From positions 1 to 60,495 of the IMG/VR virus record IMGVR_UViG_3300020202_000083: a stretch of 60,495 bases of DNA. The stretch is one strand, 5' to 3'. The stretch comes from a virus. The notes under the pieces are model-generated. The model searched no databases and was not told the origin of the DNA. It worked only from the letters and a program-made list of their open reading frames with translations. The translations under genes and the position numbers were made by a program. This document shows positions 6,016 through 60,495 of this stretch, piece by piece (positions within the stretch are counted from its first letter, which is position 1; each line of letters begins with the position of its first letter).

Positions 6016-6245
6016 TGGCGAACTACAGCGGTCTAGTCGCTGAGAGGCGTATCCCTAGTGCGGCCGAGGAGCAAGAGGCTGGCATCCGTGTTCAGGCCGC
6101 AATCGAGCGGCAAAGACACCGCTGCAGAGAGTGCAAGGCAGCACTGCGCGATGGCGAACAGTGCGGCTTTTGGAAGCGTCGCGTGGCTGCCGACGACAGG
6201 GTGGTATGTGAGCGCTGTGCAGGTCGCGGGAGGACGCTCAGTTGA
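6015..6245 (+). CDS. Small zinc-ribbon protein, 76 aa
   Basis: Starts in a TGATG overlap. CRECKAAL near residue 37 and CERCAGRG near the C-terminus give a CxxC...CxxC arrangement likely to bind one zinc ion. Function unknown; ends in a TTGA overlap with the GroES-like gene. Confidence 0.6.
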   Translation: MANYSGLVAERRIPSAAEEQEAGIRVQAAIERQRHRCRECKAALRDGEQCGFWKRRVAADDRVVCERCAGRGRTLS

Positions 6246-9422: not shown

Positions 9423-9798
9423 TCCCTCCCTTTCCGAGCTGCGCGCCATGTTGGCCTCCGGTCGAAAAGTGCATCCGCGCACGGGACTCGCGATCGAGAA
9501 GCATATCCGAAGCGAAGAGGCGGCCATGCGTCGTGCGCTGTACAGAGCAAAGGCTGACATCGCACGCCGAGAGAGAACCCTCACCAAGCTGGTCGGTGGC
9601 GTGGATGAGGCACGGCGCGATTACCTTGCCGCGAAGGCCAAGCGAAGGCGAAGGCAGGAAGCAGAAAGGGACAGCTGGTCGGCATTCCTTGCCGAGGAAA
9701 CAACTCGGGTGGCGGTCCCACGTGGTGCGAGGGCGAGGCAACGGAAGCTCCGCATGGAGGAACTCGGCTTCACCGGTAGGGAGATGGGTTATGGCTAA
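9415..9798 (+). CDS. Hypothetical basic protein, 127 aa
   Basis: Lies between terminase and portal. Highly basic and helical (AKADIARRERTL...AAKAKRRRRQEAERD), compatible with DNA binding or a coiled coil. Overlaps terminase by 8 bases. No family recognised. Confidence 0.6.
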   Translation: MANPSLSELRAMLASGRKVHPRTGLAIEKHIRSEEAAMRRALYRAKADIARRERTLTKLVGGVDEARRDYLAAKAKRRRRQEAERDSWSAFLAEETTRVAVPRGARARQRKLRMEELGFTGREMGYG

Positions 9799-24473: not shown

Positions 24474-24482
24474 GGAGGACCA

Positions 24483-26204
24483 TTGGCCTACGGTAACCTC
24501 ATCAGCTACGAGCCCGCGCCGACGCCCGGCGCGTACCACTTCACCACACGTGACGGACGGAAGCTGTTCGCGTTCGGCGCGCAGGCTGAGGTGATGAAGC
24601 GGCGTCTTGATCAGGCGAACGCGGTGGGCCCGCAAAAGACAGCTCAGCTCGGCCCGATGGCGAACATGTCCTCAGCATTGAGCGGCGGACCACCTGCTGC
24701 TCCACCTCCAACGCGTGCAGACGTCAAGCGCTGGCCAGCCGCGCCAGCTACGGCAGCTGCGGCGCCAGCAGCTCCCGGCGCCAGCGCGTCTGCACCTGTG
24801 GCACCCGCGACCGCGCCAACTGCGCCAGCGCAATCGTCAGAGCCCGAAGCGCTCGGACTCGGTTTCTACAAGGACCCGAAGACAGGCATGATCCTGCAAT
24901 ACGACCCCGGCTCTCCTGGATCAAAGGGCGGGCCTGTCGAGCGTTCGCGAACGGAACGCGGCGGATTCGATCCCGATCCTGCGTACAAGGCGGCCAAGTG
25001 GGAACTCCTGCAAGCGCAAACTGACAACATCGACGAGCAGCGCCGGCAACACGCCGAGAACTTTGAAGCCGATCAAACGCTTCTGCAGGACCAGCGCGTG
25101 ATGGCAATCGATGCGATACAGGAAGAGCACGCTCGCAAACGCGCCATTGATCAGGGGGTCGAGGAAGCAACCGCGAAGCACGACGCTGTCGTTCAAGAAT
25201 ACACAAGCGCGAAGGAGGACCCTAGCCGGGCTCTGTCCGGTGGCAAGAACTGGATCTACGGACTTGCCATCGGCCTCGGCACATTCGGCGCCGCCATGAA
25301 CAAGCGCCAGAGTCAAGCGGTCGACATTGTGCAAAAGCAGATCGACCGCGACATCGCTGCACAGAGAACAGAGATCGCGATCAAGCGCGACGCTGCCGAC
25401 AATGCACTTGCCGATCTGACACGGAAACTTGGCTCCCAAGAACGCGCAGAGAACGCACTAAAGCAAATTCAAAACCAGCTGATACAGAACAGCCTCGCTC
25501 AGCAAGCCAGCCGTGAGAAGAACGCCGAAAAACTCGCGAGCCTAAAGGCTCTGCAGCTCGGCCTGCAAGAACGCTTCCTCGATCTGAACGAGCAGGATCG
25601 TCGCCTGGCTCAAGGCGAGGTCACTAAGCACATCGTCAACGCCCCAGCGGAACCGCCGCGGCAACCTGGTCTGCGTCCGGTGAAGGATCAGACTGGTACG
25701 GCCAGAGCGTTGGCGGATCTGCGTAACGCAGAAGGCAAGGCGCAGGGTGATGGTAAGACGCCCGCAGCAGTGCCAACCGAGCGCACTAACAAGGTAGCGC
25801 TCAATTCTCAGATCATTGAGCAGGCCGACGGGATCGTGTCGCAGCTGCCCCCAGAGGAGGACGAGTGGGGCGACCCCGCATCCGGTCCTGTCGATTCCAC
25901 GTGGAACAAGGGTGAATCGAACAAGCTCAATGAAGCGACGAGCGCTCTCGCTACCAGTGTGCAGATCGGTTCAGGCGCCGGTTCTACCGCAGATGATAGA
26001 AAACAGGCGGGAGAGCTCGTCGGCGAAGGCGGTTCGGTCTCTGCCCGTCGTCGAGGCGCCCAGCGCGCCGCAAGCGAAGCGGCTCAACGCATCGCAATCG
26101 AGATCGCGACGCTGCCGCCAGAACAGCAGGAGCAGGCGATCAAGGCCATGCCGAGGGCAACACAGAAAGCCGTGCTGGATGCCCTGAAGAAAGGTGGCCA
26201 GTGA
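24483..26204 (+). CDS. Internal virion/ejection-type protein, coiled coil
   Basis: 573 residues from a TTG with GAGGA upstream. A long Ala/Pro linker (about residues 70-120) is followed by extended coiled coils (AENFEADQTLLQDQRVMAIDAIQEEHARKRAIDQG; EKLASLKALQLGLQERFLDLNEQDRRLAQ). One hydrophobic glycine-rich stretch (WIYGLAIGLGTFGAAM) could insert in a membrane. Between two other very large Ala-rich proteins, the most likely role is a DNA-ejection protein released from the capsid. Confidence 0.6.
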   Translation: MAYGNLISYEPAPTPGAYHFTTRDGRKLFAFGAQAEVMKRRLDQANAVGPQKTAQLGPMANMSSALSGGPPAAPPPTRADVKRWPAAPATAAAAPAAPGASASAPVAPATAPTAPAQSSEPEALGLGFYKDPKTGMILQYDPGSPGSKGGPVERSRTERGGFDPDPAYKAAKWELLQAQTDNIDEQRRQHAENFEADQTLLQDQRVMAIDAIQEEHARKRAIDQGVEEATAKHDAVVQEYTSAKEDPSRALSGGKNWIYGLAIGLGTFGAAMNKRQSQAVDIVQKQIDRDIAAQRTEIAIKRDAADNALADLTRKLGSQERAENALKQIQNQLIQNSLAQQASREKNAEKLASLKALQLGLQERFLDLNEQDRRLAQGEVTKHIVNAPAEPPRQPGLRPVKDQTGTARALADLRNAEGKAQGDGKTPAAVPTERTNKVALNSQIIEQADGIVSQLPPEEDEWGDPASGPVDSTWNKGESNKLNEATSALATSVQIGSGAGSTADDRKQAGELVGEGGSVSARRRGAQRAASEAAQRIAIEIATLPPEQQEQAIKAMPRATQKAVLDALKKGGQ

Positions 26205-28939
26205 CGCAGCCGGTTTACCCGAGTCTGTTGCCACAGAACGCGCCTTCGCTGCTGACTGGCGGCGCTCCTGGCGCGCCTCTGCCGGTGGCACCGCAAGGCG
26301 CTCGCGCTCTTCTTGAGCAGCGCGCAGCACAAGGTGCATTCAGTGAGCTCGACGAACGCAAGCGCGTCGAAGAAGAGGCCGCGCGTCAGCACGCCGCAAG
26401 CCAGGCCCGCTGGGGCGACGGGCGCGGCGCAGCGGCGACAGGTCTCACCTACTTTACGAAAGGGGTGCTCGACGTTGTGCTGGCCCCGGGAGCACTCCTT
26501 GGGGCCACACTCGAAGGTGTCGGCTGGCTCGCTGACAGCGAGGGACTAGAAGACTTTGGGCGAGATCTTGGGAGAGCATCGAGCGGCCGAGAGGCGCTCT
26601 CTGCCCTGACAGCCGCCCCTGAGGCACTGTCGGCACTGGCCAGCACGCCTGATCGTGCACGCGACCGCAGCGCGCTTCACTCCTACGAATCCGCTCGAAA
26701 AGACCTGGCCGCGCAGGCCGAAGCTTGGCCGCTTCTTTCTACCGTGTCGGCGCTCGCCGGCGAGGCCGCAACGGGTTTAGCGCTGGGAGGGCTCGCGACC
26801 GGGGCCAAGGGGCTCGTAGGCGTTGCCGCGTTCGAGGGCGCCAGCGGCGGTGCGCAGACGGCCTACGAACGCTCGGCTTCGTATCGCGATGTCTTGGCCG
26901 CAGCCGGAACCGGGGCACTGCTGGCGACTGGGCTAGCCTGGGGTGGTGAAGCTGCCGTGGGCGCCCTGCAGCGCCGCGGTGCACGCATCGAAGCTGCGCG
27001 CTCTGCGTTCGGTGAGGTCGCTGAAGCAGAGACCAAGGCGGCGGCTCGGACAGGCGCGAAGGTCCCGGTCGACAAGGCCGGGGGGCGTGAAGCGCAGTCT
27101 GTGATTTCTGAGCTCGAAGCTGCGCGGGAAACAGCTCACAAGGCGGTCAAGGCTGCCGGCGATAACCCGATCAAGCGTCAGAGCGCTTTGCAGGAGGCGC
27201 TCGGCACAGTTCGCGCAGAACTCGCCGAGAAGGCCGGCAAGTTCCAACCCGAACGCTGGACCAGCCAGACACCGACGCCGCTGCAACGCGTGCTCTACAG
27301 GACGGAACTGCTCGACAGGATAGCTGATGATGTGGCTACTGCAGCGAGCCACTCGATCCGCACTGCACCGGACTTCAGCTTTCAGGTCTCCCCCAAGCAT
27401 CTCACGCGCGTACTCAAAAATGCCGACGGGCCCGCCGCGATCGGTTCGCTACAACAGCGGATCGCTGCTGGTATTCAGGAGGCCCCACATACCGAGCTAG
27501 CGGGTGCTGTGGTGACCGACCTGCGCGCGACCTTCGCGCGTCTCGCCGAGGCTGAGCTGCCCGAGGCATTTGTCGAGAGCCATAAGCTTTCGCAACGGCT
27601 CATGGCTGTGGCCGCCCGGGGCGACGAGCTTACGGCCGCTTACGCCAAGCGACAGGCAGGGAGTCTTGCGCAGACCCTCTCAAGCGAGTCGTTCGGCACG
27701 GCCGGCAAGCTCTACGGCGACGCTCTTCAAACGGCCTCGGAGCGAGCGGCGAAACTAGCAGACGCGAAGCTTGTGCGTGAGGCGCTTCGCACGGCAGACC
27801 TCCGCGGCAATCTCCCTGCTATCGCCCGAGAGCACTCTGACACAGTAGCAAGGGCTCTGGACGCACAGGCGAAGCTAGCGGGCCGCTCAGCACCGACGGC
27901 CGCGGTGGCGGATCTGCACGAGCTAGAACGGCTGCTCACTAAAGCTGAAGAGGCCGCTACGCTTGACGGTGGCCCAGTGAGACGGGTGGTCGATTGGTTC
28001 CGCAACAAGGCCGAGGACAAGGCCGCAAACGCCGTGAGTGCGGCCGTTGGCGGCGCCATCGGCGGCTACCCTGGTGCAGCTGCCGGTTACCTCGTTTCGA
28101 GCTTTCTGCGCCCTCGCATGGGCAGCATTCTCGGCGCTGTCCGGAACGCTGCGCGTCGTGGTGGTCGCGGCATCCAGAAAGCAGTCGCGCGAACCGGCAA
28201 ACCCGCCAACGAGTACCTGCAGGCGCTTGCTTCTGACCTCGGCGAGAACGCAACGCTCGACACGATGGCGACCATACGTCCCAGCGCATTGAGTGGCCGC
28301 GCCGTCGCACAAAAGGAAAAGCACGCTCAATTCGAGGCCAGAACTGCCGCACTTGCTCGCTTGAGCACCGACACGAGTGCACTCGATCAGCCGCTACAGG
28401 CGCTCGATTCCATCATTCCGAGCTCGAGTGCGCTCGCAGCCGCTGAGATTGCCGGCAAGATGCAGACTCTGATCGCGGACTGGCCCAAGTCATCGACCGA
28501 TTTTCGCGGGCGGAGCAGTGGCAAGTCCTCGGACGAGATCCGCAAAGCGAGCGCCATGTGGGAGGCGACCTTTGACCCCGGAAGTGTGTTCGAAGAGCTA
28601 GCCGCTGGGCGTCTCGATCCGGAGAAAGCACGTTACGTCTGGAAGCAATACCCAGGACTGAAGCAAGCGGCGCAGATGGCGCTGCTTGACGTGTTTCATA
28701 ACCAGCTGAGCGAAGAAGAGCTTGCGGCAGTGCCGGAGACGGTCGTGTCGCAGCTCGATCGCTTTCTCGATCTTGAGGGAGCGCTTCAAGAGACGCTCAG
28801 GCCGGAGTTCGTTCAGGCCGTGACCGCTATCGCTGAGCAAGCAGCGTCCAAGCAAAAGCCTACCGTCAAGAAGCCGCTCGACTTGCCTACTAGCAGGCCG
28901 ACACCGATGCAGAGAATTTCAGGGCAGCGCAAAGGATAA
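26201..28939 (+). CDS. Large internal virion/ejection-type protein
   Basis: 912 residues, Ala-rich (GTG start in a GTGA overlap). Several hydrophobic Ala/Gly segments occur in the first 250 residues (GVLDVVLAPGALLGATLEGVGWL; AGEAATGLALGGLATGAKGLVGVAAFEG; AAAGTGALLATGLAWGGEA) and one near 610-630 (AVGGAIGGYPGAAAGYLVSSFL), with coiled coils between. This is the pattern of the largest podovirus ejection proteins that build a channel across the envelope. No lytic enzyme motif was seen in it. Confidence 0.6.
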   Translation: MTQPVYPSLLPQNAPSLLTGGAPGAPLPVAPQGARALLEQRAAQGAFSELDERKRVEEEAARQHAASQARWGDGRGAAATGLTYFTKGVLDVVLAPGALLGATLEGVGWLADSEGLEDFGRDLGRASSGREALSALTAAPEALSALASTPDRARDRSALHSYESARKDLAAQAEAWPLLSTVSALAGEAATGLALGGLATGAKGLVGVAAFEGASGGAQTAYERSASYRDVLAAAGTGALLATGLAWGGEAAVGALQRRGARIEAARSAFGEVAEAETKAAARTGAKVPVDKAGGREAQSVISELEAARETAHKAVKAAGDNPIKRQSALQEALGTVRAELAEKAGKFQPERWTSQTPTPLQRVLYRTELLDRIADDVATAASHSIRTAPDFSFQVSPKHLTRVLKNADGPAAIGSLQQRIAAGIQEAPHTELAGAVVTDLRATFARLAEAELPEAFVESHKLSQRLMAVAARGDELTAAYAKRQAGSLAQTLSSESFGTAGKLYGDALQTASERAAKLADAKLVREALRTADLRGNLPAIAREHSDTVARALDAQAKLAGRSAPTAAVADLHELERLLTKAEEAATLDGGPVRRVVDWFRNKAEDKAANAVSAAVGGAIGGYPGAAAGYLVSSFLRPRMGSILGAVRNAARRGGRGIQKAVARTGKPANEYLQALASDLGENATLDTMATIRPSALSGRAVAQKEKHAQFEARTAALARLSTDTSALDQPLQALDSIIPSSSALAAAEIAGKMQTLIADWPKSSTDFRGRSSGKSSDEIRKASAMWEATFDPGSVFEELAAGRLDPEKARYVWKQYPGLKQAAQMALLDVFHNQLSEEELAAVPETVVSQLDRFLDLEGALQETLRPEFVQAVTAIAEQAASKQKPTVKKPLDLPTSRPTPMQRISGQRKG

Positions 28940-28953
28940 AAAGGAGAAGCGCC

Positions 28954-29409
28954 ATGAGTTTGGTTGAATACGAAGCGAACAATGTCATTCCGCCGCTAAA
29001 GAACAGCGACGCAATGAAGAGTCAGGCCTGTGTGGTGGTGAGCACTGCCGGGATCGTGCAAGGGCTGTCGGGACTGTTCGGGAACTCCCTCGGCGACGGG
29101 CACTTTCTCACCCTCGAGGCTGACGGGACAAAGATTTATGTCGCGTTCTCGCCGAACAGTTCGGGCAGCATCAACCCAGCAGCAACGGGTAACGGGGCAA
29201 CTATCTGCTATCCCATTCCTGATGGGGTGATGATGTCCGTGCGTCCCATTGCTGGCAGGGAAGTCGGCACTGGGATCGCGACGATGTGCCGTTATGACTT
29301 CTTGCACGCGCGCGTACCCACGACGGCCGCTGTGGCCACGGGCTACCTTAGGATCTATCGCAGCAGTCTGGCGCCGACCCAAGACGCTGGGGAGTTCAGG
29401 GCACCATGA
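28954..29409 (+). CDS. Hypothetical virion protein, 151 aa
   Basis: Strong ribosome binding site (AAAAAGGAG) 9 bases before the ATG; a rare non-overlapping gene here, suggesting high expression. Beta-rich product (KIYVAFSPNSSGSINPAATGNGATICYPIPDGVMMSVRPI). Similar in style to small tail or head-decoration proteins; no named family. Confidence 0.6.
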   Translation: MSLVEYEANNVIPPLKNSDAMKSQACVVVSTAGIVQGLSGLFGNSLGDGHFLTLEADGTKIYVAFSPNSSGSINPAATGNGATICYPIPDGVMMSVRPIAGREVGTGIATMCRYDFLHARVPTTAAVATGYLRIYRSSLAPTQDAGEFRAP

Positions 29410-37941: not shown

Positions 37942-38427
37942 TCAGAAGCCTAGTTCGTCATCATCGCCAGGTTCACGCATGCGCTTTTGGTTGCTGTTGC
38001 CTGACCCTGAAGCCTTGCGCTGCCGACGATCGAGCATGGCGCCCTTCATGCGCTCTTCGAGAGAGGCCACCTCATGGCTCTCCATCTTTTCTTTGACGTT
38101 CAGGCCGCCGCCGAGTGAGTTGACCCAGCGCACGCGCGAGTAGGTTTTGCCGTCCTGTCCGGTCTCGTGTTCGACGACGATCACGCACGGGCGGGAGCCG
38201 AGTCCACCGAGCTTGGCAAGGCTCTGCCCGTCCCAACCGGCGTTTTCGAGACTGTCGAGCGTGCGTTCATAGGTAGCGTCTGTGAAGAAGCCATACCAGG
38301 TGATCCGTTGGCCCTTGTCGTCGCCGTCGGCGATCTCGAAAACGATTGCGACTTGTTCCGTTCCCTTCGACGTTTTGCCGAAGGTCCATTCGCGCGCGAG
38401 CGCTTGGTAATGTCCTGGTTTGAGCAT
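37942..38427 (-). CDS. Single-stranded DNA-binding-like protein
   Basis: 161 residues, ATG overlapping the stop of the nuclease/ATPase gene by one base (TGATG). Beta-rich N-terminal 110 residues (AIVFEIADGDDKGQRITWYGFFTD...) fit an OB-fold or DUF669-like domain. The C-terminus is a flexible, basic linker ending in DDDELGF, the acidic-hydrophobic tail by which SSBs recruit partners. Coupling to a Sak4-like ATPase is a common phage recombination pair. Confidence 0.7.
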   Translation of the reverse strand: MLKPGHYQALAREWTFGKTSKGTEQVAIVFEIADGDDKGQRITWYGFFTDATYERTLDSLENAGWDGQSLAKLGGLGSRPCVIVVEHETGQDGKTYSRVRWVNSLGGGLNVKEKMESHEVASLEERMKGAMLDRRQRKASGSGNSNQKRMREPGDDDELGF

Positions 38428-40013
38428 CAAGCAGCCTCACTCTCAGCTAGTTTGGTTTTCAGAAAATCAACGAGTTGACAGAGCTTGCGGGTGTCGTTCC
38501 CGGCCCGTTCGATGGCGGCTTTCGCCCTGTCCTGTAGTTTCGGGTTTGCTCTGTCGATCAGCTGCTTGATCTCGACCATAACTTTCTCGACATCGAGGGC
38601 GCCGGCGCGCGTCGCCTGCTCAAACTCCTCCCAGTCGAGCGCCATCTCGTAAGGCAAGTTGTACTTGTTCTTTGCGTCCCAAGCTGGGCGATGTTCCGTG
38701 TACACCACGCGCGAGCCATCGCCGACGCCACGGACTCGGCCATCTTTCTCGCGGGTGTATATCCTGTAGTTGGCAAACAGCACAGCCTTCGGCCACTCTT
38801 TGATTAGGGCTGCCGCTTTGCCGTGGAGCTTGAGCTCGTAGCGGTCGTAGTCATCACCGACCGGGTTTCGGAAGGTCTTCACCTGACTGTGTGCCAGGAC
38901 AATGACGTGCATTCCCTTCTGCATATGCAGAACATCGAGCTTGTCCGTCAGTCTGCGCCACTCCTCGAGAGCGAGCACATAACCTTTGCCATAGCCGAAA
39001 TCCTCGATGGAGTCCTTCTTGCCCTCGCGACAGACGTAGTCATGGATCAACGGCTCGAGCCAATCGACCGTATCGATGGCAATCGTCTTGAAGTCGTGAT
39101 TGCTGTTGGCGAGCTCGTCTAGTGCTTCCACGCACCCTTCCCAACTGTCTGGTTTCGGGAATCGCGCGACATCGAGCTCTGACGTTCCGTTCTCCGAATC
39201 GAGAAAGACGGGGTTAGGAGCATTGGCGGCGAACGTGCTCTTTCCGATCCCTTCTGGGCCGTAGAGCACTACACGGAGCGGCGTTTGAAGGCGCCCCTTT
39301 CTCACATTCGATAGCTTCATGTTGGACATTCGGTTCTCCTTGCCTTGTTGCAGGTGTGATGTGTAGGCAGAGCACTTCGGGCGCGCACGACAGTAGAATG
39401 CGTCGCAATGCGGACCGGGATTCGCTGGCGTACGCTTGGCCAGTAGGTCTCCCATCAGTACGACCAACCGCGCCCTGTCATTCTCGATGTCGGCAGTCGA
39501 TCGTGCGACAACGTCGACCACGACCTTGCCAGTCTGCTTGTCGACGTAGTGAAACTCTGTGCGCTGCACGCCGGTCACGACGCTGGCGAAACGGAGCTGC
39601 CAGGCTTCGGTCGCGGGCACTCGTTTTTTCCCGGTCTTTAAGTCGATTATTGTCGTCTTGCTGACAATGTCGAGCGTCCCGGCAATGCCACTAACCAGGC
39701 CGTAGCCTCGACCGATGCGCTCGCCAATCTCTCGAGCTGAGCCGTCGGGTAGCAGCTCGTAGGCTACCTCGTGACGACGTGGCGACGGGAGGAGCGGCTT
39801 TCCGTGCCGCAGCCAGCCTTCGTACATAGCACGCACCAGACGTTCGGTTTCTTCGTCCTGTAGCTCAAGGCGGGCGCCGTATCCGTTTTCCACGAGCGAG
39901 TGGAATGCGGTACCAAACTGCGCGGCTGGCCCTGGGCGATCTGGAACGTAGATGTCCGTCCAGTGGAGGCACTGCACAGCTAGATCAAGTTTGGACGCGG
40001 TGAGTTTAGCCAC
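38427..40013 (-). CDS. Fusion: Cas4/RecB-like nuclease plus Sak4-like RecA-fold ATPase
   Basis: 528 residues from GTG 40013, which has GGAGG upstream. Residues 1-220 are a PD-(D/E)XK nuclease: His38, Asp115 in GTLDIV, and Asp124-x-Lys126 in IIDLKTGKK. Cysteines 15, 203, 208 and 214 are placed as in the Fe-S cluster of Cas4/AddB nucleases. Residues 230-528 are a RecA-like ATPase of the Sak4 type with Walker A GPEGIGKS (252-259) and Walker B IAIDT (311-315). Met229 has its own AAGGAG six bases upstream, so a separate 300-residue ATPase may also be made. Followed by an SSB-like gene. Together this is a likely DNA end-processing and strand-annealing module. Confidence 0.8.
   Translation of the reverse strand: MAKLTASKLDLAVQCLHWTDIYVPDRPGPAAQFGTAFHSLVENGYGARLELQDEETERLVRAMYEGWLRHGKPLLPSPRRHEVAYELLPDGSAREIGERIGRGYGLVSGIAGTLDIVSKTTIIDLKTGKKRVPATEAWQLRFASVVTGVQRTEFHYVDKQTGKVVVDVVARSTADIENDRARLVVLMGDLLAKRTPANPGPHCDAFYCRARPKCSAYTSHLQQGKENRMSNMKLSNVRKGRLQTPLRVVLYGPEGIGKSTFAANAPNPVFLDSENGTSELDVARFPKPDSWEGCVEALDELANSNHDFKTIAIDTVDWLEPLIHDYVCREGKKDSIEDFGYGKGYVLALEEWRRLTDKLDVLHMQKGMHVIVLAHSQVKTFRNPVGDDYDRYELKLHGKAAALIKEWPKAVLFANYRIYTREKDGRVRGVGDGSRVVYTEHRPAWDAKNKYNLPYEMALDWEEFEQATRAGALDVEKVMVEIKQLIDRANPKLQDRAKAAIERAGNDTRKLCQLVDFLKTKLAESEAA
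39327..39341 (-). promoter_or_regulatory. Internal ribosome binding site and start codon in the nuclease-ATPase gene
   Basis: On the minus strand AAGGAGAA (about 39341-39334) precedes an in-frame ATG at 39329-39327 with ideal spacing. It lies exactly at the boundary between the nuclease and ATPase domains, so translation may begin a second time here. Confidence 0.6.
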
Positions 40014-51690: not shown

Positions 51691-52710
51691 GTGAGCCGTA
51701 TTCGTACCGTCAAGCCGGAGTGGCTACAGGACGAGCGCCTAGCACTCGCGAGCGCAGAGGCACGCGTGCTCTCGATCGCGCTCATCCTGCTTGCCGACGA
51801 CTACGGCAATGGTCGAGCCAACTCGGTGGTGCTCGGAGCCACTGTGTTCCCTGGCGAGGACAGTCCGCGCACGACTTTTGTCGCCGCCGCCGAAGAGCTC
51901 ATCAAAATCAGATTCGTCCGCTTCTACGAGGTCGACGGGCAGCGCTACTTCTCGATTCGCAACTGGTCGAAGCATCAGCGGGTTGATCACCCAAGCGATC
52001 CGAAGGTGCCTGCGCCACGGCCAGAAGATGACGACACTGAAACAGCGCACCTTCACACGGCCGATGGCCCTGGGGCTGGTGCACAGAATCGCGCAGGCAC
52101 GGCCGACGGCCCTGAGCAACGCGATCACGCTGCCACGACAGCTGTAAGTAAACGAAAGGACACAAAACAAGTCGACTCGCGAAACTCTCGCGAGTCCCTC
52201 GAGAATGACTCAGGAGGATTTCGATCCTCGCGCGATCCCATCCCTTCCTCTGATCTCTCCCTTCTTACAAAGCCTTTAACGGATCTACCTGAAAAGCCTG
52301 GATCTGCGCACGCGCGGAGCAAACCACAGGCCAAAGCAAAGCCGACCGAGGACCGGGTGCCGAGGCCGCTAGCGCAGGACTGGCAGCCCGAAGCCGAGCA
52401 GGTCTCGGCGCTGGCAGCGAAGCACCAGGTCACGGAGGCGCGCATTCGGGCAATGCTGCCGGAATTCGTTTGGTATTGGCGCAAGGACGGCAAAAAGACT
52501 ACCGCGCGTGGCTGGGCGCAGACGTTTTCGAACCGAATGGACACGCTGGCGAAGAACGGCCAGCTCTACATCGCTCGCCCAGGCGAGAGCGCGCCGACGA
52601 CACCAGACGACGCCGACGAGCGCCGTAAACGCGCCGCCGAGGTCGAGGCCAGGGCTCGGGCCGTCCGCGACGCCAAACCGCGTGTAGCGGGCAGCCAGGG
52701 GGCTTCGTGA
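51691..52710 (+). CDS. Replication initiator/helicase-loader-like protein
   Basis: 339 residues from GTG 51691. The N-terminal 110 residues (PEWLQDERLALASAEARVLSIALILLADDYGNGRANS...YFSIRNWSKHQRVDHPS) match the winged-helix region of phage replisome organisers. A low-complexity linker (about 120-235) is followed by a C-terminal DnaT-like segment (IRAMLPEFVWYWRKDGKKTTARGWAQTFSNRM) expected to load DnaB. The linker DNA has hairpins and direct repeats and may be the origin, as in lambda O. Overlaps dnaB by 4 bases. Confidence 0.72.
   Translation: MSRIRTVKPEWLQDERLALASAEARVLSIALILLADDYGNGRANSVVLGATVFPGEDSPRTTFVAAAEELIKIRFVRFYEVDGQRYFSIRNWSKHQRVDHPSDPKVPAPRPEDDDTETAHLHTADGPGAGAQNRAGTADGPEQRDHAATTAVSKRKDTKQVDSRNSRESLENDSGGFRSSRDPIPSSDLSLLTKPLTDLPEKPGSAHARSKPQAKAKPTEDRVPRPLAQDWQPEAEQVSALAAKHQVTEARIRAMLPEFVWYWRKDGKKTTARGWAQTFSNRMDTLAKNGQLYIARPGESAPTTPDDADERRKRAAEVEARARAVRDAKPRVAGSQGAS
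52174..52305. other. Candidate replication origin inside the initiator gene
   Basis: Perfect hairpin GACTCGCGA/TCGCGAGTC (52174-52182 with 52188-52196, 5-base loop), then GAGGAT-TTCG-ATCCTC (52214-52229). Downstream are direct repeats of AAAGCCT (52269, 52293) and GGATCT (52281, 52300). The stretch is less GC-rich than its surroundings and codes for a disordered linker. Placement copies that of lambdoid origins. Confidence 0.5.
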
Positions 52711-54125
52711 GCGAGCACCTAGTCCCGCCCAGTGATCTCGACGCTGAGGCGACCGTGCTGTCAGCCGTGCTGGTTCAGAAAGGCGCGCTGGAGGAAGTCG
52801 ACCATTTTCTGAAAGCCGCGCACTTCTACGCCGACGCCAATCGATGGATCTGGGAAGCCGTCACCGATCTCGCGAGCGCTGGCAAACCGACGGATCCCAT
52901 GATGGTCGCAGGCTGGCTACGCGACCACAACCGGCTGGCTCAGGTAGGTGGGGCCTCCTACATCGCGCAGCTCGTCGAGACAGTGCCGCCCACCGTGCGA
53001 CTCGCGGCGACGGCCATGCGCATCGTCGACAAGTGGCGATTGCGTCGCATCATCGACGAGGCACGGGCCATCGTGGCCGAGGCCTACACGAACGCGGATG
53101 ACGTGGCGGGGTTTGTGCAGAGGGCCGAGGCGCGGATCTTCGGTGCCAGCCAAAGCCTTGTGCGGACCAGCACGATCGCGTCCGCCGGCGAGGTGATGCG
53201 AGAGTGCATCGAAGAAGCCCGCGAGACGCGGGACGGGAGTCGACCGCGCGGCATATCGACCGGCTTTGCGTCTCTCGACAAGCGCATCGGTGGGCTACGC
53301 GGTGGCCGCGTCTACGTGTGCGCTGGCCGCCCCGGCATGGGCAAGACCTCCTTCGCAACCAAAGCTGCGCGCACGCTGGCCAAGTCGACTGCTGAGCGCC
53401 GTGGGGTCTTCTTTGCCTCGGTCGAGATGCCTCGAAAGCAGATTGGAGATCGGTTGATTGCTCAAGAGGCGCAGCTCGATACGCGGGCCGTCGAAATGGC
53501 GATGATGAATCGTGGCGAGTGGGAAGACTACACGAACGCTGCGAATCGTATCGCGCAGTGGCCACTCATCATCGAGGACCGCGGCGGCCTGACGCTGTCC
53601 GACCTGCGGAGTTCGCTCAGGCGAGCTGTGCGCAGGCTCGAGTCGGTGCACGAGACCAGCCTGGGGCTCATCTGCATCGACTACCTGCAGCTGATGAGCA
53701 CGGCCGACCTTGGCAAGGGCATGGACCCAAATCAGCGCCTAGAGCTTCTGAGCGCAGCTTTGGTTGCGATTGCCAAGGAGTTCGACGTGCCTGTGGTTCT
53801 GCTTTCGCAGCTCAATCGCGAGTGTGAGAAGAGGGTCGACAAGAGGCCGATCCTGGCAGATCTGCGCGGCTCTGGCGCTATCGAGCAGGACGCGCACACC
53901 ATCATCTTTTTTTACCGCGAGGACGTTTACCGCGCACCGGGCGACGCCAAGGATCGCTCCGCCGAAATCATCGTCGCCAAGGCGCGCGGAGGGCGCACCG
54001 GCACCGTGAGGGCGGACTACCTCGAATACTGCACGGAGTTTCTAGATCGAGTGGACGATGACCCACACGACGCATTCGCTCGACAGTTCGACGACTTCGT
54101 CACAAGTGAGGCTGCAGCAGAATGA
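52707..54125 (+). CDS. dnaB: Replicative DNA helicase DnaB
   Basis: 472 residues, full length for DnaB. The N-terminal domain (residues 8-150; DLDAEATVLSAVL...HFYADANRWIWEA) is followed by a RecA-like helicase domain with Walker A GRPGMGKT (207-214), Walker B IDYLQ (324-328), the SQLNRECEKR arginine region and DLRGSGAIEQDA. It unwinds the fork as a hexamer. GTG start overlaps the loader gene; its stop overlaps the start of the first glycosyltransferase, linking replication and glycan genes in one operon. Confidence 0.95.
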   Translation: MSEHLVPPSDLDAEATVLSAVLVQKGALEEVDHFLKAAHFYADANRWIWEAVTDLASAGKPTDPMMVAGWLRDHNRLAQVGGASYIAQLVETVPPTVRLAATAMRIVDKWRLRRIIDEARAIVAEAYTNADDVAGFVQRAEARIFGASQSLVRTSTIASAGEVMRECIEEARETRDGSRPRGISTGFASLDKRIGGLRGGRVYVCAGRPGMGKTSFATKAARTLAKSTAERRGVFFASVEMPRKQIGDRLIAQEAQLDTRAVEMAMMNRGEWEDYTNAANRIAQWPLIIEDRGGLTLSDLRSSLRRAVRRLESVHETSLGLICIDYLQLMSTADLGKGMDPNQRLELLSAALVAIAKEFDVPVVLLSQLNRECEKRVDKRPILADLRGSGAIEQDAHTIIFFYREDVYRAPGDAKDRSAEIIVAKARGGRTGTVRADYLEYCTEFLDRVDDDPHDAFARQFDDFVTSEAAAE

Positions 54126-56620
54126 CCACCCCAAAAATCTCCCTAGCCATGATTGTTCGGGACGACGAATCGACGATCGAGGCGTGTCTCCAGTCAGCGC
54201 GTCCGCACGTGGACGAAATCGTTATTTGTGACACTGGCAGCAGTGACCGAACGCCCGAGATCTGCCGCAAGTACGCTGACAAGTGGGAGCTGTTTTTGGG
54301 CGCGAACGACGAGGAGGGTCGAATCGTCGACTTCGCTATGGCGCGCAACAAGAGCTTCGCCATGGTGACCGGAGAGTTTGTGCTCTGGCTCGATGGCGAC
54401 GATGTTCTTCGCGGCGGTGAACACCTACGCAAACTCGCGGCAGAGTCGACTCACGAATACGTCCAATACCTCTTCCCCTACGAGTACGCACGCGATGATG
54501 CCGGCAACGTAACGCTGCTACAGATGCGCGAGCGACTGATGCACCCGCCTCACGCGCAGGTCTGGCGAAGCCCGGTGCACGAGTACTGCGTCTGCGAGTC
54601 GAACGGGGCACCCGTCCCGATGATCGTCTGTGACGAGGTCGTGGTAGAACACCATAGCCGTCAATCGACCAAGCAGCGCGAGCCTCAGCGGAACCTCCGC
54701 ATCCTAAAGAACTACGTCCAGCGCGTCGGCGAAAGTGACGTGCGAGCGCTGTACTACATTGGCGTGGAGTACGCGGCGGCCGGAGACATTGGCAATTCGC
54801 TGCGTTACCTAAAACGCTACGTTCAGCTCGCGGATTGGGACGACGAGAAGTGCAAGGCGCTGCTCTCTATCGGCGAGCACTACCGGCAGATCGGCGACCA
54901 CGACGAGGCCATCCGCTGGACCACCCAGGCCATGACCACCAAGAGCTGGCCGGAGCCCTATTTCGCGCTCGGGAGGAGCTACTACGCCATGGCTGAGCGC
55001 GGCGAGCATCCCGAGAAGAACTACCGACGCGCGGCGTTCTTCATCGTCAAGGGGCTTGAACAGCCGACAGATCCGGTGCTCTTTGCCAACCCGCTCGATC
55101 GGTTTGCGATCCACGCTTACCTGAACGTTTGCTTTCACGCAGTGGGTGACCACGAGCGTGCGCTCTGGTCGTGCGAGGAGGGACTCAAGGGTCTGCCGGG
55201 CCATGGCGTACTGCTCAATAACGCCAAGGAGTACCGGAAGGCCAAGGCGCGGAGCGCGGTAGCGAGCGGGATCGATGAGCTCGAGAGGCTAGAGGCCATC
55301 CCGCCGACACAGGTTGCGCTCCTGCGCGCTGCTCTCAAGGGGCAGCTCAACATTGAAACAGACTTGCCGGCTCAGGCGAATGGTACGCAGGGAGAACCTG
55401 CGGCGGCCGATGCTGTTGGGGCCCATGAAACAAAGCCCGAGCCCGGCTTTCTGGACGTCGTTCTCTTCTTGGGCCCCGCGCTCGAACGCTGGACGCCGGA
55501 GACGTGGGCAAAGACAGGAATGGGCGGCAGCGAAACGATGGCCTGGGAAATGGCTCGGCGGCTGCGAAAGCTCGGCCACCGCGTGCGCGTCTACACCGAC
55601 TGCACACCCGCCCAAGAGGGACTCTACGAAAACGTCGAGTGGTTGCAATGGCAGCGCTTCCGCCAGGTTGAGTGCGACGTTTTGATCGCGAGCCGGTTCC
55701 CGTGGGCGGTTGACGATGCGGTGAGGGTTAACGACGTGGAGATTGGTGGCTGCAAGGCGACGGTGCGACTCTTGTGGGTCCACGATTGTCACGTAGGTGA
55801 GCACTTGGACCTGCGGCGCGCTGCCCGGTTCGATCGAATCCTCTGTCTGAGCCAGTGGCACAAGCGCTTCTTCGTCGGTTGCTACCAGGGGATCGATGCG
55901 GACAAGGTGTACGTCACCAGAAACGGCATCGACCTCGCTCGGTTCGATGGCACCGAGGAGCGCAATCCGCATCGCGCAGTGTACAGTTCAAGCCCAGACC
56001 GCGGGCTGCTCGCCGCCGTCATGGCCTGGCCGAAGGTGCGCGAGCAGGTCCAGGACGCGGAGTTACATGTGTTCTACGGCTTCGGGAATTGGGAGAAGAG
56101 TGCGCAGGGTGACCAGGCTCAGCTAGGACAGGTCGCACACCTGAAGCAGCTGTGTCGGTCAACCGCTGGTGTGGTGCTACGCGACCGAGTGAATCAGAAG
56201 CAGCTAGCGCGAGAGTTCATGCGGGCAGGAGTGTGGTGCTACGGAACCTGGTTCTCAGAAACCTCGTGCCTGACAGCGATGGAGGCCCAGGCCGCCGGCC
56301 TTCACATCGTGACGTCGCCTATCGCTGCGCTCGTCGAAACCGTCGGCGACCGTGGCGTGATGCTGAAAGAGCCATGGGGCGGAGACAGTTTCCCGCCGCC
56401 TCCGCCTCGGACTGAGTTCGTTGCAGAGCTCGCTGAGAAAACAATCCAGGCAATGCACGCGGCCGGTATTGGCCCAAACGAGTACGGCATCGACTACGCC
56501 CGCGAGCACTTCGGCCTCGACACTCTCGCTGACAACTGGTCGGCAATGCTGATCGAGATGGTCGAGGACATGCGGGAGCGCGTGGTGCCGGCATTCAAGG
56601 ATTGGGAGGCTGCGGAGTGA
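54122..56620 (+). CDS. GT2-TPR-GT4 fusion glycosyltransferase
   Basis: 832 residues. Residues 1-190 are a GT2 family enzyme (ISLAMIVRDDESTIEACLQS...EIVICDTGSSDRT...FVLWLDGDD, with the metal-binding DGDD). Residues about 195-390 are TPR-like helical repeats (ALYYIGVEYAAAGDIGNSLRYLKRYV; ALLSIGEHYRQIGDHDEAIRWTTQAM). Residues about 445-832 are a GT4-type enzyme (MGGSETMAWEMARRLRKLGHRVRVYTD; KVYVTRNGIDLARFD; YSSSPDRGL; SCLTAMEAQAAGLHIV). Two transferases in one chain could add two sugars in sequence. Directly follows dnaB. Confidence 0.88.
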   Translation: MTTPKISLAMIVRDDESTIEACLQSARPHVDEIVICDTGSSDRTPEICRKYADKWELFLGANDEEGRIVDFAMARNKSFAMVTGEFVLWLDGDDVLRGGEHLRKLAAESTHEYVQYLFPYEYARDDAGNVTLLQMRERLMHPPHAQVWRSPVHEYCVCESNGAPVPMIVCDEVVVEHHSRQSTKQREPQRNLRILKNYVQRVGESDVRALYYIGVEYAAAGDIGNSLRYLKRYVQLADWDDEKCKALLSIGEHYRQIGDHDEAIRWTTQAMTTKSWPEPYFALGRSYYAMAERGEHPEKNYRRAAFFIVKGLEQPTDPVLFANPLDRFAIHAYLNVCFHAVGDHERALWSCEEGLKGLPGHGVLLNNAKEYRKAKARSAVASGIDELERLEAIPPTQVALLRAALKGQLNIETDLPAQANGTQGEPAAADAVGAHETKPEPGFLDVVLFLGPALERWTPETWAKTGMGGSETMAWEMARRLRKLGHRVRVYTDCTPAQEGLYENVEWLQWQRFRQVECDVLIASRFPWAVDDAVRVNDVEIGGCKATVRLLWVHDCHVGEHLDLRRAARFDRILCLSQWHKRFFVGCYQGIDADKVYVTRNGIDLARFDGTEERNPHRAVYSSSPDRGLLAAVMAWPKVREQVQDAELHVFYGFGNWEKSAQGDQAQLGQVAHLKQLCRSTAGVVLRDRVNQKQLAREFMRAGVWCYGTWFSETSCLTAMEAQAAGLHIVTSPIAALVETVGDRGVMLKEPWGGDSFPPPPPRTEFVAELAEKTIQAMHAAGIGPNEYGIDYAREHFGLDTLADNWSAMLIEMVEDMRERVVPAFKDWEAAE

Positions 56621-56916
56621 GGTGTTCTCGCAAGGAAGCGAAGTACATCGGGCGCACGGCTCTGGAGATTGTCTACTCGGGCGCCGCCGCACTGATGCGC
56701 GATGGGAAGACGTGCTCAAAGGCGTTTGTCGGGCCCAGCACCTTCCAGCTCGTGCACGATCAACTGGTATTTAGTCGAGACCCAACGCTGCGAGCCGAGT
56801 GGGACGGGAACCGCTGTTACCTGAGAGTTGCCGTATGTGGCCGAGAGTTGAGCATCCACATGGATCCGAGCCTCGAAGAGGGTGACGTCGAGTTTTCGAT
56901 GAGGAGCGACAAGTGA
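56617..56916 (+). CDS. Hypothetical protein, 99 aa
   Basis: GTG start in a GTGA overlap. Beta-rich second half with RCYLRVAVCGRELSIHMDPSLEEGDVEF. No family recognised. Confidence 0.55.
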   Translation: MRCSRKEAKYIGRTALEIVYSGAAALMRDGKTCSKAFVGPSTFQLVHDQLVFSRDPTLRAEWDGNRCYLRVAVCGRELSIHMDPSLEEGDVEFSMRSDK

Positions 56917-56984
56917 AGGATCATAGTTACGAGCTAGTTCTAGCCGTCATCACGCTGGTGTTTCTGTGGTGGGTGCTGCGATGA
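56913..56984 (+). CDS. Tiny transmembrane peptide, 23 aa
   Basis: GTG 56913 shares GTGA with the previous stop and its stop overlaps the next ATG. MKDHSYELVLAVITLVFLWWVLR is a charged start followed by one membrane helix. Too short for any family; real coding is supported only by coupling at both ends. Confidence 0.4.
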   Translation: MKDHSYELVLAVITLVFLWWVLR

Positions 56985-57226
56985 TGCAAGTGATTAACAC
57001 AGTCTCCAGCGTGCTATCGCTGCTGGCTTGCATCTACATGTATCGCGCGATGCTCGGTTACAAGCGCGCAGCGACGAACTGGGAGCAGGTTGCCTACAAG
57101 GCTACGGCGGACCTCGTGGCAGCGGAGGCGCGGGGCGACGAGTTTCGCGATGCGTACCTCGCGCTGGCCGATGAGCGCACGGCGTCACTGCTCAAGGTGG
57201 CAGGAAAACAGGCGGGGTGGTCATGA
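56981..57226 (+). CDS. Small membrane-anchored protein, 81 aa
   Basis: MMQVINTVSSVLSLLACIYMYRAML forms an N-terminal membrane helix; the rest is a charged helix (YKATADLVAAEARGDEFRDAYLALADERTASLL). Inside the glycan operon. It overlaps the methyltransferase gene by ATGA. Confidence 0.55.
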   Translation: MMQVINTVSSVLSLLACIYMYRAMLGYKRAATNWEQVAYKATADLVAAEARGDEFRDAYLALADERTASLLKVAGKQAGWS

Positions 57227-57891
57227 GAATCAACATCGCCTGTGGCGGCAACATCTTCCCCGGCTGGGTGAACTCCGACCTCGTGGACATGAACGAAGCT
57301 TATCTCCGGCACCTCCGCGGTCTCGCCGTCGCGCAGATGCACGGATGGCCACCGGGGCAGATCGAACTCTCGCGCGCCATCACGGAAGGTCGTGTGCAGT
57401 TCTTCCAGTGGGACCTGCGCAAGGGCTTTCCGATGTATGCGGACGGCAGTTGCGAGAAGCTGTACCTGGGTCAGGCCTGGGAGCATCTTCACCCGCACCG
57501 TGAAGCGCCGGCACTCGCAAAGGAGTGCTTCCGGCTGCTTGAGCTCGGCGGCGTCATGCGTATCACCACGCCGGACATCAAGAAGATCCTGGGCCTCTAC
57601 AACGACGGCAGGCTCAGCGAGATAGCCCCAGAGCAACCGGCGTTCTTCGCGTCAGCGAGCCCAGAAGCGCAGCTCTCCTACCTGCTCTTCGGGGCATCAG
57701 GCGACGACTGCACCCGCGAGGATTATCACGGCCACTTTCACGTCTGGAGTGAAGCAGATCTGACGGAGCTGCTCGTGTCAGTCGGATTCAGCAGCGTCGA
57801 GCGATGCGACGAGCCGAGCTTGGAATTCAAGTATGCCGGTGTTCAGGACTTTGGGATCTCGCACAGCATGGGAATCGAGGCGGTGAAGTGA
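57223..57891 (+). CDS. SAM-dependent methyltransferase-like protein
   Basis: 222 residues, class I methyltransferase fold: INIACGGNIFPGWVNSDLVD (motif I region of the predicted SAM-dependent type), WDLRKGFP, LYLGQAWEHLHPH and ECFRLLELGGVMRITTPDIKKI. Related proteins occur in glycan operons and methylate sugars. ATG 57223 overlaps the preceding stop. Confidence 0.8.
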   Translation: MRINIACGGNIFPGWVNSDLVDMNEAYLRHLRGLAVAQMHGWPPGQIELSRAITEGRVQFFQWDLRKGFPMYADGSCEKLYLGQAWEHLHPHREAPALAKECFRLLELGGVMRITTPDIKKILGLYNDGRLSEIAPEQPAFFASASPEAQLSYLLFGASGDDCTREDYHGHFHVWSEADLTELLVSVGFSSVERCDEPSLEFKYAGVQDFGISHSMGIEAVK

Positions 57892-58991
57892 TTCGCATCG
57901 CGATTGTCGCCACGGGCGCACATGCTCTCCCGTCGCCTAGCTTTACCGGTGACAGCCAGATCATCATCGATCTCTGCATCGCCCTGACTGAGCTCGGACA
58001 CTGGGTCACGCTACTTGCTCCGAAAGGGACGGTGTCACCGCCAGGCGTCAGGCTCTGCGAGGACCTGCCGGTCGGTGCTGGGTTCGAAGAAGCCTGCGCT
58101 GACGTTGGCCAGCTGCTAGCGATGTCTAACACGGTCGACGTCTTCCACGACTTCTCGATCGGCAAGACGGTACACGGGCAGTGTAGCCGGCACGGCTTTC
58201 CAAGCATCAGCACCATCCTCGGCGGCTGCGCCTACAAGCCCCTGCGAAATACCGTCGTGTGGTCCGAAGCCATGCGAGACCGTGTGATGCGCGGAGCGAC
58301 AGACTACGAAGGCACACAATGGCCGGACAAGGGCGGGCAGCAGTGCGAGCCGTTCAAGGACGTGCGTGTCGTTCACGGCGGAGTTGATACGGAATTCTAT
58401 TCGCCGGGCCCACCCGACCAAGTCGGGGATCACTACCTATGGCTTTCACGCTGGAGTCCCGAGAAGGGCCCGCTGGAAGCCGTCGAGCTCGCCAAGGCCA
58501 CCGGCATCGAGCTCGTGATGGCCGGGCTTTCGCCGGAAGCGTTGCCGCCTGCTGAAGGGCGCATTGCGGCGAAGTGTCTGCAGGCTGCTCAGGGTTTTAG
58601 CAACATCAGCTTCCAGTGGCTGGCGCCGGGCGCCGGACATCACGAAGCGAAGCGGGAGCTGCTGCGACAAGCTCGATGCTTCCTTGCGCCTCTGCAGTTT
58701 CAGGAGCCGTTTGGGCTAGGCATGGTGGAAGCCATGGCGTGCGGCACGCCCGTCATCGCCACCAGGATGGGTAGCGCCAGGGAACTCATCGGTGGTGGCT
58801 TGACTCTCGTTGGGATGAAAGAGCAGGCGCTTGAGAATCGTGGGCCCTTCGAGCCACTCGACAAGTGGCGCGCTCAGAAGCGGCGCAAGGCAGCACGCAA
58901 ACGCGCGGTGCGGATGTTCGACCGCAAGGTGATGGCCATGAACTACGTCAGGCTTTACGAAGAAGTGTGTGGAGGCGGCGGATGGGGATGA
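57888..58991 (+). CDS. Glycosyltransferase family 4 enzyme
   Basis: 367 residues from GTG 57888. GT-B fold: N-terminal part with DSQIIIDLCIALTELGHWVTLLAP; C-terminal part with VVHGGVDTEFYSPG, YLWLSRWSPEKG and the donor-binding EPFGLGMVEAMACGTPVIAT (EX7E). Transfers a sugar from a nucleotide donor to a growing glycan at the cytoplasmic membrane or to a protein. Confidence 0.88.
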   Translation: MIRIAIVATGAHALPSPSFTGDSQIIIDLCIALTELGHWVTLLAPKGTVSPPGVRLCEDLPVGAGFEEACADVGQLLAMSNTVDVFHDFSIGKTVHGQCSRHGFPSISTILGGCAYKPLRNTVVWSEAMRDRVMRGATDYEGTQWPDKGGQQCEPFKDVRVVHGGVDTEFYSPGPPDQVGDHYLWLSRWSPEKGPLEAVELAKATGIELVMAGLSPEALPPAEGRIAAKCLQAAQGFSNISFQWLAPGAGHHEAKRELLRQARCFLAPLQFQEPFGLGMVEAMACGTPVIATRMGSARELIGGGLTLVGMKEQALENRGPFEPLDKWRAQKRRKAARKRAVRMFDRKVMAMNYVRLYEEVCGGGGWG

Positions 58992-59257
58992 AACTTACCT
59001 ACTGCTCCTTTGCTGACGATGAGCGCTGCCGTGGCGTGGTGATCCTGGATGGTTACTTGGATCCGGTGATGGCTGCGCTTCAGGCACGCTTTCTCGGAAT
59101 CAACCCAGGCGGCCAGCTTCTTGTCTTCGAGATCCCGGAGGACTTGGAAGGCATCGACGTTTACTTCGCCAACCGGAACCGCCTGCTGACAGCCGACGAG
59201 GCTCGCACTCTCTTCGATGGGATGACGCTGAGTGAGTGGGAAGGACAGCTCAACTGA
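58988..59257 (+). CDS. Hypothetical protein, 89 aa
   Basis: ATG 58988 overlaps the GT4 stop (ATGA). Soluble mixed fold (KLTYCSFADDERCRGVVILDGYLDPVMAAL...LLVFEIPEDLEGIDVYF). No family recognised; always with glycan genes here. Confidence 0.55.
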   Translation: MKLTYCSFADDERCRGVVILDGYLDPVMAALQARFLGINPGGQLLVFEIPEDLEGIDVYFANRNRLLTADEARTLFDGMTLSEWEGQLN

Positions 59258-60369
59258 TGCGTTTCTCGCTCTTGTACGGACCCTTCTGCCTCTCGTTCCG
59301 CAAAACGCTCGACCTCGACACCTGGCGCACAGACCCGCGTGGCTTGTCGGGCTCGGAGATGTGCGCCGTCAGGCTTTACCAGGAGCTGCAGGCGCTTGGT
59401 CATGACGTCGAGTTCTTCAGCATCGGCAACGGTTGCTCACCTTGGGAGAAACGCGGCGAGTGGACTGGCGACGTCGCCATCAGCATCAACGTGCCTGACG
59501 ACCTCCGCGGAATGCGTGCCAAGGTGCGAGTCTGCTATGCGCTGTTGAACGATTTCAGCTTCTGTAAGGTCGGCTTCGAGGAGCACGTCGACCTGTTCCT
59601 CTCACCGTCTGCAGCGCACCGCGACCAGTGCCTCAACAATCCCGACTGGCGCAAAGTCGAGGTCACACCGGACCACTCGAACGGCAAGGCGCAGTGGGAC
59701 CCGTCGGGCAAGCCATGGGCGGCCGTCGCGCTTGGTTGCGATCCAGAGCGCTACGACGGCTTCGAAAAGGTCCCGGGGCGCGTCGTCTACGTGAGTTCGC
59801 CTGACCGTGGGCTGCATCTACTGCTGCAAGAGTGGCCAAAGATCCGCAAGGCCGCGCCGCACGCAACCCTCAAGGTGTTCTATCGGGTGCGCGATTGGAT
59901 CAACTCCTGGGCGGGCGTACCGTTCTATCCATCAATTGAGCGTCAGCGCCAGCGCGCCATCTACATCGACGAATGTTTGCGACGTCTCGAGGGCTACGGC
60001 GTCGAGCTCGTGGATGCGGTGAGCCGGGAGCAGCTCGAGCGGGAGTTAGGGCAGGCCGAGGTGCTGGCGTTTCCCTGCGACCCCGTTAACAACTTTACCG
60101 AGGGCTTCAGCGTGGCGACCCTCGAGGGTTGCGCCGCTCGCGCGTGCCCTGTCATCAGCGACGCAGACGCGCTCGGTAGCATCTACCACGAGGCATGTGT
60201 CGTGGTGCCGCGCGGGCGCTGGGACGAGTGGCGAGAGCATGTGATCGATGTGCTGCGCGACGAGAAGCGCCGCGAGCACGTGAACCGGATGGCAGTGGAC
60301 TTTGCCCGGAGGACAACGTGGAGTCACACAACGCAGCGAATCATGAATCTAGTGCAGGAACGCCTGTAA
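59257..60369 (+). CDS. Glycosyltransferase family 4-like enzyme
   Basis: 370 residues; ATG shares one base with the previous stop. GLSGSEMCAVRLYQELQALGHDVEFFSIGNG and YVSSPDRGLHLLLQEWPKI closely resemble the GT4 part of the 54122-56620 protein, indicating common ancestry. FTEGFSVATLEGCAARACPVISDADALGSIY is the donor-site region. Its end overlaps the true start of the cupin gene at the circular junction. Confidence 0.82.
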   Translation: MRFSLLYGPFCLSFRKTLDLDTWRTDPRGLSGSEMCAVRLYQELQALGHDVEFFSIGNGCSPWEKRGEWTGDVAISINVPDDLRGMRAKVRVCYALLNDFSFCKVGFEEHVDLFLSPSAAHRDQCLNNPDWRKVEVTPDHSNGKAQWDPSGKPWAAVALGCDPERYDGFEKVPGRVVYVSSPDRGLHLLLQEWPKIRKAAPHATLKVFYRVRDWINSWAGVPFYPSIERQRQRAIYIDECLRRLEGYGVELVDAVSREQLERELGQAEVLAFPCDPVNNFTEGFSVATLEGCAARACPVISDADALGSIYHEACVVVPRGRWDEWREHVIDVLRDEKRREHVNRMAVDFARRTTWSHTTQRIMNLVQERL

Positions 60370-60495
60370 TCGAAAAGCCGCCCGTGTCGTTCTCGGACGA
60401 TCGAGGCTACATCAAGAACCTGCTGAACCGGCCGTGCGGTGGCGTGCAATTCATCTTCAGTCGAGCAGGCTCTAAACGCAGCTCGCACTGGCACA
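60318..60495 (+). CDS. Cupin gene, 5' part (continues at base 128 through circular join)
   Basis: GTG at 60318 has GGAGG at 60308-60312. The frame overlaps the end of the glycosyltransferase gene by 52 bases, crosses the terminal overlap and joins the cupin frame at bases 1-369. The 22 residues ahead of the apparent start at base 16 are polar. This shows that the circular closure is correct. Confidence 0.75.
   Translation, partial: MESHNAANHESSAGTPVIEKPPVSFSDDRGYIKNLLNRPCGGVQFIFSRAGSKRSSHWH
60369..60495. repeat. Terminal overlap, right copy
   Basis: Identical to bases 1-127. The unique genome length is therefore 60,368 bases. Confidence 0.97.

Follow-up and report, generated by a model that had tools for sequence, protein, structure and literature searches.

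Why would a phage join a long run of deoxysugar-synthesis and glycosyltransferase (GT) genes to its replication module, and what would carry the finished sugar? The IMG/VR record IMGVR_UViG_3300020202_000083 (60,495 nucleotides; the window, here, means this whole stretch) raises both questions. A first-pass annotation had predicted a 4-keto-6-deoxy sugar that is C-methylated, reduced and then transferred, leaving open whether the product alters the lysogen surface or decorates virions. Our analysis supports that sugar, and its transfer by several GTs, as a prediction, and the comparative evidence favours virions. We propose, with moderate confidence, that these genes form a conserved phage cassette that acts in the cytoplasm to glycosylate virion proteins of the phage itself, using a C-methylated 6-deoxysugar made from host deoxythymidine diphosphate (dTDP)-glucose.

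The first 127 bases of the record are identical to the last 127, so it is a circular genome, 60,368 bp once closed. Because 127 is a common maximal k-mer in assembly, the repeat is probably an assembler overlap, and a biological phage end is thought unlikely. Across this join, from dnaB (52707) to position 4734, 18 open reading frames (ORFs) follow one another on the plus strand, and, in keeping with the overlapping run described earlier, overlaps of 1–10 bases (mostly 4) occur at 16 of the 17 junctions; the only gap, of 49–121 bases, precedes a small ORF near 57,000. The span first given for the glycan genes, 54122–60495, is real, but the cassette extends to 4734 and includes an inserted HNH gene (2883–3536). 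Predicted promoters and terminators in the run did not exceed those in shuffled sequences. The dnaB helicase gene (52707–54125; Pfam DnaB_C, E = 1e-75) opens the run and serves replication, outside the glycan function. The cassette lies between the replication and packaging modules, all on one strand, and is framed by genes for an integrase (47980), replication initiation (51691), GroES (6242), terminase (7911) and a major head protein (14907); we read the genome as that of a tailed phage with an integrase, apparently podovirus-like to judge by its relatives.

Domain and profile searches supported the enzyme identities first assigned from the sequence, beginning with those that would make the sugar. 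The RmlB-type nucleoside diphosphate-glucose 4,6-dehydratase (3533–4495; TIGR01181, E = 6e-67) retains the STDEV site noted previously (STDEVFG, containing TDE), together with YSAAK (YxxxK) and TGGCGFVG (GxxGxxG), and matches a dTDP-glucose 4,6-dehydratase structure (8shh, E = 2e-45). Its TIGR01181 score of 226 bits is below the equivalog cut-off of 365, so we assign it to the RmlB subfamily only, with activity on dTDP-glucose predicted. No RmlA-like nucleotidyltransferase (PF00483) was found in this phage, and one occurs in only 2 of the 20 records; replacement of host RmlA by a phage enzyme was rejected for this phage, and the host would therefore supply the nucleotide sugar.

The sugar C-methyltransferase (CMT; 532–1665) has all three domains of its class (Methyltransf_13, Methyltransf_23 and Methyltransf_14) and intact motifs: two CxxC pairs (zinc cysteines), the S-adenosylmethionine (SAM) site VLDVGCNDG, and YHEH. 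Its profile, built from an alignment of 18 sequences, matches TylC3 (4rv9, E = 2.5e-106) and TcaB9, both C3-methyltransferases; the methylated carbon is most likely C3, with C5 possible. No 2,3-dehydratase was recognised in the phage cassette, so the exact TylC3 route is not copied and the substrate of CMT probably differs from that of TylC3.

A compact Gfo/Idh/MocA oxidoreductase of 247 aa (2143–2886; Pfam GFO_IDH_MocA) is the candidate ketoreductase. Its profile matches structure 3c1a (E = 2e-50), and all 14 aligned sequences share the EKP and D..GxH motif residues. An ORF call that starts mid-domain raised the possibility of a frameshifted or broken gene; this was ruled out, because the gene read from 2143 is complete, with a GxGxxG-like start, EKP and D..GxH. 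The 123-aa cupin, a candidate CapF-type epimerase or isomerase, spans the circular join (60366–60495 plus 1–369); its GTG start at 60366 lies in a GTGA overlap with the stop of the preceding gene, and bases 60369–60495 duplicate bases 1–127. In its AlphaFold2 (AF2) model (mean predicted local distance difference test (pLDDT) score 94.5), the best folds are the C-terminal cupin domain of CapF (template-modelling score 0.84–0.87 by query); sequence matches are weak (Cap5F and QdtA; E = 0.0013), and the HxH...H pattern is conserved. In CapF, this domain takes a 4-keto sugar intermediate as its substrate. The predicted product of these enzymes is a C-methylated and reduced derivative of a 4-keto-6-deoxy sugar, a structure that we infer.

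Transfer would start with an 832-aa fusion protein, GT832 (54122–56620; Pfam GT2, TPR and GT4), whose gene begins 4 bases before the end of dnaB. The DGDD motif of its GT2 half is intact, as is EX7E in each GT4 enzyme, namely GT832, GT367 (57888–58991; Glycos_transf_1, E = 3e-14 for the longer ORF form) and GT370 (59257–60369; Glyco_trans_1_4). GT832 fits the description of SunS- and GmaR-type enzymes in having a GT2 domain followed by helical repeats, and its profile gave sequence matches to GmaR and SunS in the GT2-TPR half. The top folds for its AF2 model (pLDDT 88) were SunS, ThuS, SPY and OGT, a ranking that partly reflects the combination of TPR and GT itself. We regard GT832 as a candidate initiating protein glycosyltransferase (the GT2-TPR half) joined to an extending GT4. 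The conserved cassette members, GT832 included, lack membrane segments. MT224 (57217–57891) gave no family match on its own; a relative (9088–9744 of locus L003) matches Methyltransf_11 and Methyltransf_23, the protein is conserved across 13 aligned loci, and we predict a SAM methyltransferase, possibly one that caps the glycan. Profiles of MT224 and GT370 gave no matches to solved structures at the limits used.

The cassette recurs far beyond this genome. In IMG/VR, single-sequence scanning with CMT had no matches, and with the dehydratase it gave a single distant locus; a scan with GT832, then with its profile, opened the family. These scans pick candidates by short patterns, and the resulting counts are lower bounds. 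The GT832 profile found at least 23 viral loci versus at least 2 contigs among 84,980 species genomes, one of which (L029) has a terminase within 8 kb; the fusion thus appears to be nearly virus-only. About 20 viral contigs, from podovirus-type and 80–473 kb phages alike, share this gene series in synteny, with identities of roughly 35–55%; it therefore did not arise by chance. Relatives' cassettes comprise the fusion, MT224, GT367 (in some), an FkbM methyltransferase (in many), GT370 (in nearly all), the cupin, CMT, the dehydratase and Gfo/Idh, with a recurrent order of fusion–GT–cupin–C-methyltransferase–dehydratase–Gfo/Idh. Adjacent pairs were counted 21 times for GT370–cupin, 21 for cupin–CMT, 20 for CMT–dehydratase and 19 for dehydratase–Gfo, counts that contain three seemingly near-duplicate pairs of loci (L017/L028, L021/L022 and L014/L019).

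The phage in the window is atypical in that Gfo/Idh precedes the dehydratase, with the HNH endonuclease gene between them (Pfam HNH_3; phrog_1872, E = 7e-29). HNH genes sit at other junctions of the same cassette in L014, L015 and L019, which suggests repeated homing into it. In the tree of the fusion protein, a podovirus-type branch stands apart from a large-phage branch, and the window's phage groups beside L009 (Shimodaira–Hasegawa approximate likelihood-ratio support 95). The dehydratase has been swapped for a UXS-like enzyme with an SSSE motif in L005, L010 and L026, and for another short-chain dehydrogenase/reductase in L011, so the sugar probably varies between phages while CMT stays constant. 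In the phage collection, CMT has distant relatives only, one of them in Synechococcus phage DSL-LC02; 259 records hold dehydratase relatives, with cyanophages closest among the matches listed.

Several relatives carry unusual proteins of their own. A response-regulator receiver fused to a dual-specificity phosphatase lies between CMT and the dehydratase in L021 (16135–17052) and also in L017, L022, L023 and L028. A putative patatin-like protein (cluster u5, named from its GGGSKG and GVSVG motifs) follows the cassette in L016, L021, L022, L024 and L025. L010 encodes (20453–21907) a single chain with HNH/endonuclease VII, Lar-like and Mom-like DNA-modification regions.

Relatives also point to candidate acceptors. 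Collagen-like genes occur in 12 of 20 records, all within the large-phage branch, and in eight distinct loci (L010, L016, L017, L018, L021, L023, L024 and L025) one is found upstream of GT832, at a distance of 55 bases to about 2.1 kb; the longest uninterrupted series in these genes has 278 Gly-X-Y triplets, and in L024 a major head protein is encoded in the same stretch. The cassette of L020 directly follows homologues of this phage's virion genes 22605–29409. In podoviruses, the neighbours of the cassette are GroES–terminase–portal, ejection-protein or major-capsid genes: in ctxSa4 the fusion gene comes right after the major capsid gene, in L004, L012–L015 and L019 the cassette stands just ahead of GroES–terminase, most with a portal-type gene next, and in about eight podovirus-type loci a GroES-like gene follows it. 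Virion proteins are favoured as the target because the GT2-TPR half resembles cytosolic protein GTs, because virion genes lie close by, and because neither a GtrA flippase nor a Bac_transf transferase was found in the 20 records.

Several observations weigh against this assignment. The window's phage encodes no collagen-like protein, no acceptor was identified in it, and there is no clear Thr/Ser-rich or collagen-like candidate among its virion proteins; moreover, its cassette comes after replication genes rather than tail genes. The cassette of L009 is near an integrase, L005 and L011 have collagen genes 10–20 kb from theirs, and L026 has none. The large-phage loci are related, so that the collagen adjacency does not represent many independent events. 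Finally, comparable cyanophage clusters have been read by their authors as modifiers of host O-antigen (PMC7824862).

Under the virion-glycosylation proposal, the RmlB-type enzyme would convert host dTDP-glucose (or another, similar nucleotide sugar) to a 4-keto-6-deoxy sugar, which the cupin would probably epimerise or isomerise; CMT would add a methyl group to carbon and Gfo/Idh would reduce a ketone. The GT2-TPR half of GT832 would then link a virion polypeptide to its first sugar (Thr or Ser of collagen-like Gly-X-Y fibres being a plausible site in large phages), the GT4 half, GT370 and GT367 would extend the chain, and MT224 may cap it by methylation. We infer the structure of the sugar, the acceptor, the order of the reactions and expression in the lytic phase. 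The cassette is probably mobile. A bolder version, which we hold only tentatively, is that of a unit exchanged between temperate podoviruses and jumbo phages, in which GT2-TPR-GT4 would coat virion proteins (in large phages, collagen-like fibres) with a self-made, C-methylated branched deoxysugar, giving phages glycosylated collagen fibrils like those of mimivirus or bacterial spores.

The main rival, which we consider unlikely yet well ahead of the others, is that, in the infected cell or the lysogen, the cassette alters the lipopolysaccharide (LPS), capsule or another surface glycan, blocking superinfection. An integrase is present in this phage, as in L009 and L015, similar cyanophage and pelagiphage clusters are read in this way in the literature, host flippases could be borrowed, and the run includes small membrane ORFs such as orf79 (1662–1901), for which hydropathy predicts two membrane segments. 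However, the GtrA flippase (PF04138) is absent from this genome and 19 related records, which rules out a gtr serotype-conversion cassette, and the Bac_transf glycosyl-phosphate transferase was not found in any of the 20; GT832 is the only GT2 protein of this cassette and has no membrane helices, although the GtrB family itself was not searched. The run is also joined to dnaB and read toward late genes, its initiating enzyme resembles protein GTs, its neighbours in relatives are virion genes, and it is conserved rather than polymorphic.

A small-molecule or mixed role, in which a secreted metabolite or a host protein such as pili or flagellin is glycosylated, is improbable: relatives of CMT such as TylC3 and TcaB9 act in antibiotic sugar pathways and GmaR acts on flagellin, but there are no genes for aglycone biosynthesis, and a host-protein target would leave unexplained why virion genes lie close by in unrelated phages. 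Least probable of all is a sugar placed on modified bases of the phage DNA against restriction, for although the cassette runs on directly from replication genes and DNA-glycosylating phage GTs are known (as cited in PMC12619734), no hydroxymethylase, TET or base kinase was recognised among the proteins searched (some small ORFs were unsearched), the GT2-TPR architecture is of the protein-GT type, and most relatives' cassettes adjoin virion rather than replication genes.

The remaining genes of the run have no assigned function: orf99 (56617–56916; 4-base overlap, no family match for its longer form), the small ORF after the gap (56966–57226, starting at 56966 or 57038), orf91 (58982–59257; a weak match to phrog_13485), orf57 (366–539) and orf82 (1898–2146). 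A small hydrophobic ORF, orf80 (4492–4734), is the last to overlap. Downstream on the plus strand, and outside the proposed pathway, a GroES-like co-chaperonin (6242–6898; phrog_3188) of 218 aa is apparently a tandem double GroES, each half matching the single-domain GroES of L004. On the minus strand, 38427–40013 encodes one protein in which a PD-(D/E)XK nuclease is fused to a Sak4-like AAA recombinase.

Should the proposal hold, decoration of the particle with partly phage-made sugars would be common among environmental phages. It would have consequences for host recognition, particle stability and immune visibility, and would account for part of the large number of phage glycosyltransferases without an assigned role. 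Published work has mostly guessed that the target is host LPS or DNA; the cassette offers a testable enzyme set (about nine genes in conserved order) with a candidate acceptor, the collagen-like fibres.

Phage clusters in which sugar-synthesis genes accompany GTs have been described before and are usually read as altering host LPS (PMC7824862, PMC7029224). The earlier statement that phage glycan cassettes lack sugar synthesis was therefore wrong: Synechococcus phage DSL-LC02 carries a 4,6-dehydratase, a C-methyltransferase, a fucose synthase and several GTs, S-SM2 has a large sugar operon, and PMC7824862 reviews such clusters. The cyanophage clusters (P-SSM2, S-SM2 and DSL-LC02) share with ours an NAD-dependent dehydratase/epimerase, cupins, methyltransferases and several GTs, and DSL-LC02 pairs its dehydratase with the C-methyltransferase family of CMT; they differ in being polymorphic and, in the loci seen, lacking a GT2-TPR-GT4 fusion, whereas our cassette keeps its gene order in unrelated phages, beside virion genes. 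Virion glycosylation is established for mycobacteriophages (Freeman et al. 2023, as cited in PMC12619734 and PMC11256854). There, as proposed here, phage GTs act on virion proteins; those citing accounts report GT genes, whereas our cassette adds a nucleotide-sugar branch of dehydratase, C-methyltransferase and reductase. With SunS/ThuS and GmaR, GT832 shares the GT2 fold, the C-terminal helical, TPR-like part (of SunS) and a predicted cytosolic protein or peptide acceptor, and differs in fusing GT2-TPR to GT4 within one phage protein. With TylC3, TcaB9 and NovU, CMT shares the zinc-binding domain, the SAM domain and the C-terminal domain with YHEH; unlike TylC3, it belongs to a phage cassette in which no 2,3-dehydratase was recognised. 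Thr-rich, collagen-like Gly-X-Y proteins, such as BclA and those of mimivirus fibrils, are known to be glycosylated (PMC8968730), an analogy that concerns the large-phage branch only, as this genome lacks a collagen-like gene. Our search of the open-access literature found no paper describing this cassette. What is new is a conserved cassette that combines a fused GT2-TPR-GT4 with a C-methyltransferase branch, spread over unrelated phage types and found near virion and collagen-like genes.

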